Of a stretch of DNA of 64,000 bases, positions 25,033 through 46,799 are shown in pieces. The notes under the pieces were generated by a model. The model did not search any database and had not been told where the DNA came from. It was given only the letters and a program-made list of their open reading frames with translations. The stretch's first letter is position 1. Each line of letters opens with the position of its first letter. The translations under genes and the position numbers were made by a program. Origin of the DNA: Sphingobium ummariense RL-3 (lineage in GTDB: Bacteria > Pseudomonadota > Alphaproteobacteria > Sphingomonadales > Sphingomonadaceae). The stretch is taken from contig NZ_AUWY01000071.1 of the NCBI RefSeq assembly GCF_000447205.1, forward strand, positions 62,001 to 126,000, in the 5' to 3' direction.

Positions 25033-26067
<1,035 letters not shown>

Positions 26068-26076
26068 GGAATTGAA

Positions 26077-26102
26077 CCACCCCGGCGAAGGCCGGGGTCC
26101 AG
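26077..26102 (+). repeat. Left terminal REP-like palindrome of the GIY-YIG cassette
   Basis: A 26-nt element with stem CCCCGGC-GAA-GGCCGGGG and outer tail TCCAG. It is the reverse complement of 26425-26450 except for one base (26090/91 region G versus A). If translation starts at TTG 26072, the repeat itself encodes HPGEGRGP in frame with the nuclease. Confidence 0.85.
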
Positions 26103-26107
26103 CCGGG

Positions 26108-26413
26108 ATGGCCTGTGATGGAAGGTTTGCCTTCGTCTACATCATGGCCTGTCGACGGAATGGAACGATTTATATCGGTTCCACCGTCGATCTTCCCAAG
26201 CGGGCGTGGGAGCATCGCAACAGCGTCGTTCCTGGGTTCACGAAGCGTTATGGCTGCCGGCTGCTCGTCTGGTACGAGGTGCGCGACGGCTGGGAAGCCG
26301 CCCGTCTTCGGGAGCGGCAGATGAAGGAATGGAAGCGCGCCTGGAAGTTGCGGGAAATTGAAGAGGCAGACCCGGAATGGGCGGACCTTTACGATCGGAT
26401 CGCGCGACCTTGA
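26108..26413 (+). CDS. Single-domain GIY-YIG nuclease
   Basis: A 101-aa protein consisting only of a GIY-YIG domain. The motif elements are FVYIMACRRNGTIYIGSTVD (GIY represented as VYI, then YIG). The catalytic Arg/His region LPKRAWEHRNSVVPGF follows, then the conserved K-Y/LVWYE strand and the catalytic Glu in EAARLRERQMKEWKRAWK. This is the UPF0213/YhbQ-type group, related to the UvrC N-terminal nuclease. The ATG at 26108 is used here. An in-frame TTG at 26072 would extend the protein through the left inverted repeat (LNHPGEGRGPAG), a form I consider plausible. It sits between mdh and sucD, inside an otherwise conserved metabolic operon. Confidence 0.85.
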   Translation: MACDGRFAFVYIMACRRNGTIYIGSTVDLPKRAWEHRNSVVPGFTKRYGCRLLVWYEVRDGWEAARLRERQMKEWKRAWKLREIEEADPEWADLYDRIARP

Positions 26414-26424
26414 GCGATGGGACA

Positions 26425-26450
26425 CTGGACCCCGGCTTTCGCCGGGGTGG
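26425..26450 (-). repeat. Right terminal REP-like palindrome of the GIY-YIG cassette
   Basis: Inverted partner of 26077-26102 (25 of 26 identical). Its stem CCCCGGC/GCCGGGG lies in the sucD leader, 24 bp from the start codon, so it may affect the mdh-sucD message. Confidence 0.85.
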
Positions 26451-26473
26451 AACTAGAAGGATAGAGGCGGTCA

Positions 26474-27358
26474 ATGAGCATCCTCGTTAACAAGAACACC
26501 AAGGTCATCACCCAGGGTATGACCGGCGCCACCGGCACTTTCCACACCGAACAGGCGCTGGCCTATGGCACGCAGATGGTCGCCGGCGTCACCCCCGGCA
26601 AGGGCGGCACGACCCATATCGGCCTGCCGATGTTCGACACCGTCGCCGAAGCCAAGAGCAAGACCGGTGCGGATGCTTCGGTGATCTACGTCCCGCCACC
26701 GTTCGCCGCCGACTCCATCCTGGAGGCGATCGACGCCGAAATTCCCCTGATCGTCTGCATCACCGAAGGCATCCCGGTGCTCGACATGGTCAAGGTGAAG
26801 CGGGCGCTGTCGGGCAGCAAGTCGCGCCTGATCGGCCCCAACTGCCCCGGCGTGCTGACCCCCGACGAGTGCAAGATCGGCATCATGCCCGGCTCCATCT
26901 TCAAGAAGGGCAGCGTCGGCGTCGTCTCGCGCTCGGGCACGCTGACCTATGAGGCGGTGTTCCAGACCTCGAACGCGGGTCTCGGCCAGACCACCGCGGT
27001 CGGCATCGGCGGCGATCCGGTCAACGGCACCAACTTCATCGACGTGCTGGAGCTGTTCCTGGCCGACGACGCGACCGAGTCCATCATCATGATCGGCGAG
27101 ATCGGCGGCGATGCGGAAGAGCAGGCCGCCCAGTTCCTGATCGACGAGGCGAAGAAGGGCCGCAAGAAGCCGATGGCCGGCTTCATCGCGGGCCGCACCG
27201 CGCCTCCGGGTCGCCGCATGGGCCATGCCGGCGCGATCGTGTCGGGCGGCAAGGGCGACGCGGAAAGCAAGATCGCGGCGATGGAAGCGGCCGGCATCAA
27301 GGTCGCGTCCAGCCCGTCGGAGCTTGGCTCGACGCTGGTTGAGGTCTTGAAGGGGTAA
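26474..27358 (+). CDS. sucD: Succinyl-CoA synthetase alpha subunit
   Basis: A 294-aa subunit that forms the phosphohistidine intermediate in succinyl-CoA/succinate conversion. The CoA-binding fold ([20 protein letters not shown]), the [20 protein letters not shown] motif and the active-site His loop [20 protein letters not shown] are present. The ribosome site is GAGGCGG 4-5 bases before the ATG. The beta subunit sucC, normally directly upstream, is not in this window; mdh plus the GIY-YIG cassette occupy that place. Confidence 0.97.
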
Positions 27359-46737: not shown

Positions 46738-46799
46738 GCTCCTGCGAAGGCGGGAGCCCAGTCCGGCGGCCGGAACCAGGCTCCCGCCTTCGCAGGAGC
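46738..46799. repeat. Perfect inverted pair of REP-like palindromes between bamB and der
   Basis: A 21-nt element (46738-46758) is repeated exactly in inverse at 46779-46799 around a 20-bp spacer. Each arm can fold on its own (GCTCC/GGAGC) or pair with the other. The core GCGAAGGC is the same as in the ends of the GIY-YIG cassette at 26077-26450, but no nuclease gene is present. Looks like a solo, non-autonomous unit. Confidence 0.85.

Follow-up and report, generated by a model that had tools for sequence, protein, structure and literature searches.

RAYT/REP and REPIN systems combine a small gene placed between inverted REPs with close REP pairs of one orientation dispersed in the genome. 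The cassette described here, located between mdh and sucD, resembles them in both respects, and also in its mostly vertical inheritance at the mdh-sucD locus and in the purifying selection on its gene. Differences are nevertheless clear. The RAYT is an HUH tyrosine transposase (IS200/IS605-like), whereas the enzyme of the cassette is a GIY-YIG nuclease, a class for which no strand-joining chemistry is known. Held against the GTAG RAYT/REP criteria, the window cassette has a GIY-YIG domain only, with no HUH tyrosine transposase, and its repeats have the ends CCACCCC...CCAG, with no GTAG tag. Moreover, several nuclease-REP pairs may coexist in one genome.

The nearest known relative of the window nuclease is probably the Ssn family. 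Under this name, a Nature Communications paper of 2025 reportedly described single-strand nucleases of the GIY-YIG superfamily together with their cognate repeats, initially in Neisseria. The Neisseria Ssn is said to modulate transformation through a dRS3-type repeat. A gonococcal relative of the window nuclease, 50% identical over 92 aa and which we take to be Ssn, is surrounded by eleven dRS3-like cores within 3.3 kb. In both cases, a minimal single-domain GIY-YIG protein is paired with a repeat. The difference concerns the outcome: a reported effect on transformation for Ssn, as against a self-spreading cassette boxed by REPs, to which the comparison of sequences points here.

The repeats themselves are closest to the CGTC REP superfamily. 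As described by Di Nocera et al. 2013 (PMC3733652), CGTC REPs have a stem of 8-9 bp, a loop of 4-5 nucleotides, a CCA tail and an unpaired CGTC (or TGTC, CCTC) end, and mostly form head-to-head dimers. According to the same source, they are found in five phyla, apparently without a dedicated transposase, and are frequent in alpha-Proteobacteria; dRS3 is named there as a CGTC-1 REP. The window repeats have an 8-bp stem, a 4-nt loop, a CCA tail and a head-to-head arrangement, and repeats at the same locus in six other records (L031, L034, L036-L038, L041) begin with (T)CGTCA. The window copies, however, begin with CC in place of CGTC, and their second stem pair is C-G, not A-T.

The string 'GIY' is absent from the main text of Di Nocera et al. 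2013 (PMC3733652) and from the available text of RepRanger 2025 (PMC12306157), and 'palindrom' from the available text of Dunin-Horkawicz et al. 2006 on the GIY-YIG superfamily (PMC1564403). A literature search at the level of titles and abstract openings found no tie between GIY-YIG enzymes and REPs; we claim no priority. The pairing of a nuclease with a repeat is, as such, probably already known. Within the literature searched, the link to the CGTC REP superfamily, the matching of types and the cassette as a spreading unit are new.

The cassette between mdh and sucD

The window, that is the whole 64,000-nucleotide stretch analysed, is part of contig C71 of a 4.75-Mb genome. The cassette is placed in a row of co-directed genes. 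It lies downstream of mdh (malate dehydrogenase, 25102..26067, + strand) and upstream of sucD (succinyl-CoA ligase alpha subunit, 26474..27358, + strand), both named from their sequences and from the earlier note. A single-domain GIY-YIG nuclease gene (26108..26413, + strand, 101 aa) is framed by two REP-like palindromes. The left palindrome (26077..26102, + strand) has its head outward and its CCAG tail inward. Its stem is formed by 26079-26086 and 26091-26098, closed by a GAAG loop at 26087-26090. The right palindrome (26425..26450, - strand) is an inverted copy of the left one, with a loop reading TTTC on the + strand.

Recomputation confirmed most of the layout given in the earlier note. 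The 26-nt inverted repeats (26077-26102 and 26425-26450) are complementary at 25 of 26 positions (96%). Each arm is also a self-complementary hairpin that folds alone into an 8-bp stem and a 4-nt loop, at -10.7 and -10.6 kcal/mol (equalled by none of 200 shuffles; z about -5). No transposase was found among the ORFs inspected between mdh and sucD. The cassette does break the usual close packing of these two genes, since the mdh-sucD spacer measures 406 bp in the window genome as against 81-106 bp in 51 of the 53 nuclease-less spacers of the genus, the two others containing long unrelated sequence.

A unit set in a row of co-directed genes could consist of a small host gene between ordinary operon hairpins, which would serve to process the RNA or to terminate it in part. 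A different hairpin is indeed present in the spacer of other species of the genus (28 of the 51 short spacers). However, a promoter and terminator scan of 25900-26600 found nothing, including no terminator-like site. Hairpins also surround the nuclease family at unrelated places, and dispersed pairs of them occur without a nuclease. We find this explanation scarcely credible.

The 101-aa protein matches the Pfam GIY-YIG profile (PF01541; E=1e-13, 51.8 bits for a cut-off of 22.6). This is the sole domain found, with no second DNA-binding domain detected. Residues invariant across 26 aligned relatives include Y11, Y22, G24, R32, H36 and E69; of these, Y11, Y22, R32, H36 and E69 are presumably the conserved catalytic residues of the superfamily. 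Profile match and conserved residues together assign the predicted protein to the GIY-YIG nuclease superfamily. In a scan of genome contigs, its closest relative is from Sphingobium sp. YR768 (85% identical, residues 8-101). The median dN/dS of the nuclease is 0.21 (110 pairs), a value that indicates purifying selection on the gene.

Hairpins around related genes and dispersed REPs

The contig scan was seeded with peptides of the window protein, and close relatives are therefore favoured among the 80 related loci kept, of which 78 have enough flank and 2 too little. In the flank test, the 200 bp preceding each related gene were compared with the 200 bp following it, and the best ungapped inverted repeat was scored, with a threshold of at least 14. 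This score is reached at 68 of the 78 loci. Among random intervals drawn from these loci, 2 of 234 reach it, and among neighbouring ORFs, taken as gene control, 0 of 139. Twenty-eight of the 78 are at mdh-sucD; outside this site, 40 of 50 places reach the score, which is the fairer measure. The remaining 10 of the 78 genes stay below 14, and at one Rhizobium plasmid locus (L142) the nuclease has no flanking repeat. The family set was made of the loci listed by the family search and 20 fetched stretches, with several copies per genome and two places read twice. There, 46 of 51 places score at least 14, and none of 153 random same-locus intervals does. Besides many alpha-Proteobacteria, the positive loci include MAGs named Kapabacterium (L077, L085), Ignavibacteria (L069), Calditrichaeota (L081) and Nomurabacteria (L091). 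The association of the nuclease family with flanking REP hairpins is near certain, and the related genes are, as judged from their predicted hairpins, mostly boxed by two REPs with heads outward.

REPs are also dispersed in the genomes. The general REP pattern was counted in 199 family genomes, the reversed-pattern control being non-zero in 3 of them. With a nuclease match at E<=1e-6 as definition, 134 genomes carry the nuclease and 65 do not; their median REP counts are 10 and 0, respectively. After subtraction of two REPs per nuclease match (floor 0), the medians are 6 and 0 (p=5e-6). A within-genus contrast with the same subtraction, by which alone kinship was handled, gave more REPs in 16 genera, fewer in 5 and ties in 5 (p=0.027). 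By these counts, genomes with the nuclease carry more REPs. Eleven of the 65 nuclease-less genomes contain at least 5 REPs.

Two genomes of one genus (g64), G063 with 98 REPs and G134 with 120, gave no nuclease match, profile search included. A recent loss of the nuclease, a divergent nuclease or another mover are the options for these genomes.

Pattern matches no more than 150 bp apart are oriented like the arms of the cassette in all 4 such pairs of the window genome and in all 24 of G204. The types of dispersed REPs were compared with those of the resident cassettes in five genomes. With cassette copies excluded, the comparison covered 27 REPs in G205, 35 in G200 and 65 in G204; it also covered the first 20 of 87 in G087 and the first 20 of 138 in G053; G199, with 10 REPs listed, was left out. 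Hairpins identical to those of the genome's own cassettes account for 17 of 27 in G205, 20 of 35 in G200, 49 of 65 in G204 and 8 of the first 20 in G087. G053 is plainly against type matching, with 1 of its first 20 REPs matching its single cassette. The own-genome match beats the other 119 of the 120 pairings of the five genomes. The common dispersed REPs of G204 are of three types, namely CCCCGGC, CTCCTGC and a CCCCCGC/TCCCCGC mixture, and this genome holds a cassette with each of them, loop included. Many dispersed REPs, as far as hairpin identity can tell, have the hairpin of a resident cassette in four of the five genomes checked.

The window genome contains 20 matches to the general REP pattern (control 0). 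Two are the cassette itself, one or two more are similar and most others are of other types. The exact type of the cassette is scarce in this genome; a looser search for it gave nine places, the cassette itself accounting for two. Within the window, a lone pattern match of another type (CTCCTGCGAAGGCGGGAGCCCA) is located at 46739-46760.

RAYT/IS200-type enzymes, sought with PF01797 (Y1_Tnp), are present in 32 of the 199 family genomes; the window genome has three. The REPs could be moved in trans by a RAYT or by a different transposase, the nuclease gene being a passenger merely trapped between two of them. REP counts are higher in genomes with Y1_Tnp overall (median 12.5, n=32, vs 3, n=167; p=0.03), and also among nuclease carriers (20, n=25, vs 8, n=109). 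This weakly positive signal vanishes without the nuclease: the seven Y1_Tnp genomes that lack it have a median of 0 REPs and none reaches 5. In addition, the REP pattern is absent from all 16 Y1_Tnp stretches examined (14 genomes, about 500 bp on each side). Trapping of one and the same gene family at 40 of 50 places outside mdh-sucD would not be expected either, and Di Nocera et al. (PMC3733652) describe no transposase associated with CGTC REPs. We consider the passenger explanation improbable. A Y1 transposase is unlikely as the sole mover of REPs; as more REPs are found with Y1_Tnp overall and among nuclease carriers, it may have a helper role.

Possible movement of the cassette and proposed role of the nuclease

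Genome G111 contains three cassettes at unrelated places of one 3.3-Mb contig. The copies are pairwise 98.7%, 86.1% and 85.3% identical over 374 aligned bases, and the DNA outside them is unrelated save for some 20 similar bases upstream. In G135, four cassettes that are 90-96% identical lie on small separate contigs of a 77% complete genome in 450 contigs, where mixed strains are possible. Presence also differs between related records. On Sphingobium plasmids, beside fnrL, a cassette is found in L144, L152 and L153, the L152 gene having a one-base gap. At this place, L149 and L151 have one palindrome of the same type, and L150 and L154 have neither cassette nor palindrome. In Azospirillum lipoferum 4B, a cassette is located between sufB and sufC, and three relatives with flanks about 96% identical are without it. 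At the empty sites of the Azospirillum and Sphingobium cassette-less records, the absence is clear, with no sharp joint given the intergenic divergence. Unrelated places in one genome and differences in presence suggest that the unit itself spreads, at least sometimes.

In the G111 and G135 copies (L131-L133, L122-L125), similarity reaches some 20-40 bases upstream of the left repeat, and the left boundary of the unit may in fact be situated beyond the REP.

The tetranucleotide GAAC had been said to border both ends of the cassette directly. It is present on both sides, at 26074..26077 and 26450..26453, but extends one base into each arm, bases 26077 and 26450 being common to GAAC and the repeats. 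In this register, the window is alone among 115 inverted-repeat cassettes in showing a 4-mer match, where mismatched pairs give an expectation of 0.5. If shifts of -2 to +3 are allowed, 11 of the 115 match for 10.5 (sd 2.9) expected, and an outward-shift version gives 8 for 5.4 expected. Of the 28 cassettes at the mdh-sucD place, none is bordered by the same 4-mer on its two sides when the exact repeat ends are taken. GAAC was accordingly rejected as a target-site duplication, no duplication above chance being seen over the 115 loci, and the unit lacks this hallmark of a classical insertion sequence.

The nuclease might recognise the REPs for another purpose. As an Ssn-like site-specific single-strand nuclease, it would act on incoming or replicating DNA, for instance in transformation, while the REPs would spread otherwise and be kept as recognition marks. 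The gonococcal relative among its dRS3-like repeats and the reported effect of Ssn on transformation argue for such a role, and a host function would be consistent with the purifying selection. If the nuclease acted only on incoming DNA, however, neither the cassettes at unrelated places nor the differences in presence and absence would be explained. We regard this explanation of the cassette as rather unlikely.

The best reading, to which we assign a probability of about 0.6, is that the GIY-YIG nuclease acts on its own REP hairpins, in a RAYT-like partnership for CGTC-type REPs. The cassette would be a REP doublet carrying a minimal GIY-YIG nuclease gene in its spacer. The nuclease would recognise and cut the same REP hairpin, most likely when single-stranded, the protein binding and nicking it. 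Cutting during replication or repair could lead to copies elsewhere of a single REP, of a pair or of the entire cassette. Because GIY-YIG enzymes are not, to our knowledge, able to rejoin DNA as RAYTs do, copying would rely on repair and not on rejoining by the enzyme. The long-lived mdh-sucD copy would now be a settled source, as RAYT genes are in their genomes. The two parts of this reading differ in strength: we consider it likely that the enzyme works on the hairpin of its own cassette, whereas the chances that it drives REP copying are about even. The RAYT-like partnership put forward in the earlier note is supported by the flanking hairpins (68 of 78 and 46 of 51), by the matching types in four of five genomes and by the several places occupied in one genome. 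That note had also called the enzyme the only candidate to move the palindromes; this, like the movement of the repeats by the nuclease, is inferred.

A broader proposal is more tentative, and we would put it slightly below an even bet. Single-domain GIY-YIG nucleases may be the missing dedicated enzymes of CGTC-type REPs across several phyla, each lineage cutting and spreading its own hairpin. REP-nuclease-REP cassettes would then form a class of mobile elements that move by nuclease and host repair, without a transposase. If the nuclease is the partner, the origin and spread of CGTC REPs can be put to a direct test, with a protein of 100 residues and an oligonucleotide of 26 nt. The problem which RAYTs solve in the case of GTAG REPs would also have a second solution, independent of the first. 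Finally, the system would tie the reportedly repeat-bound Ssn nucleases to mobility.

The mdh-sucD spacer and other palindrome classes

The cassette is found at mdh-sucD in 28 of the 80 related loci, in records of Sphingomonas, Sphingobium, Hephaestia, Porphyrobacter, Erythrobacter and Citromicrobium, and a recent insertion in the window is therefore unsupported. In three records (L044, L046, L053), the nuclease gene is after sucD instead of before. The repeat sequence at the locus varies by clade (CCACCCCGG, GTGCCCCGG, TGTTCCCCTG, GTGCTCCCGC, CGTCACCCCGG). Distances between nucleases are correlated with those between sucD genes (Mantel r=0.33 over the 26 usable loci of 33; one of 1000 permutations reached this value). 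Because of this correlation and of the dN/dS of 0.21, the window cassette is best described, from these comparisons, as an old and largely vertical resident of this spacer in Sphingomonadales, under selection.

Within the genus, 61 genomes were searched, 60 of which have sucD and 59 a readable spacer. The nuclease is present in 6 of the 59, the window's own genome included. Most cassette-less spacers have another sequence in common. A REP or REP-like remnant without nuclease is seen in 4 of the 51 short spacers (L172, L191, L193, L208); the L172 and L191 remnants have an apparent decayed second repeat as well, and the L208 remnant has two mismatches. According to the earlier note, a cassette in the same position in every relative, and nowhere else, would argue for an ordinary stable gene. 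The observed distribution is different, with 6 of 59 genomes of the genus carrying the nuclease and relatives at many other places. The window cassette belongs to the system as a settled copy and is not the most mobile one.

Some GIY-YIG enzymes are homing endonucleases. The single conserved place shared by 28 of the 80 loci could be taken to reflect a free-standing enzyme of this kind, spreading by cutting the empty mdh-sucD spacer, with incidental palindromes. However, no second DNA-binding domain was found in the 101-aa protein (PF01541 only), relatives are at unrelated places and the cassette-less spacers of the genus seem unlike one intact site. A homing endonuclease is very unlikely.

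In 28 of the 51 short nuclease-less spacers (for instance L174, L181), a perfect stem of at least 6 bp with a 9-13-nt loop lies in a common surrounding sequence. At the four loci tried, this hairpin matched no Rfam family at gathering score. It may be an RNA element before sucD.

Several related loci contain broken nuclease genes with repeats retained: the reading frame is interrupted by an in-frame stop in L026 and L078, by a frame change in L064 and by a one-base gap in L152.

Other palindromes are found around some nuclease genes. In the window's own genome (contig C124), the open frame at 1489-2568 of L003 joins a GIY-YIG domain to a longer downstream part. Around it stands a different palindrome (CCGTTCGCCCTGAGCGAAGTCGAAGGGC), whose inverted copy is perfect over 28 nt. 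A second REP class, as at L003, may have its own nuclease branch. In the family set, a longer class of palindromes, with GTCATTGCGAG and GCAATCCAG at the ends, takes the place of the CCCCGGC class around related nucleases at five loci (L107, L109, L113, L118, L121). On a Rhizobium plasmid (L145, 2995-3279), the nuclease adjoins an IS4-family transposase gene, and long compound inverted repeats are located on both sides.
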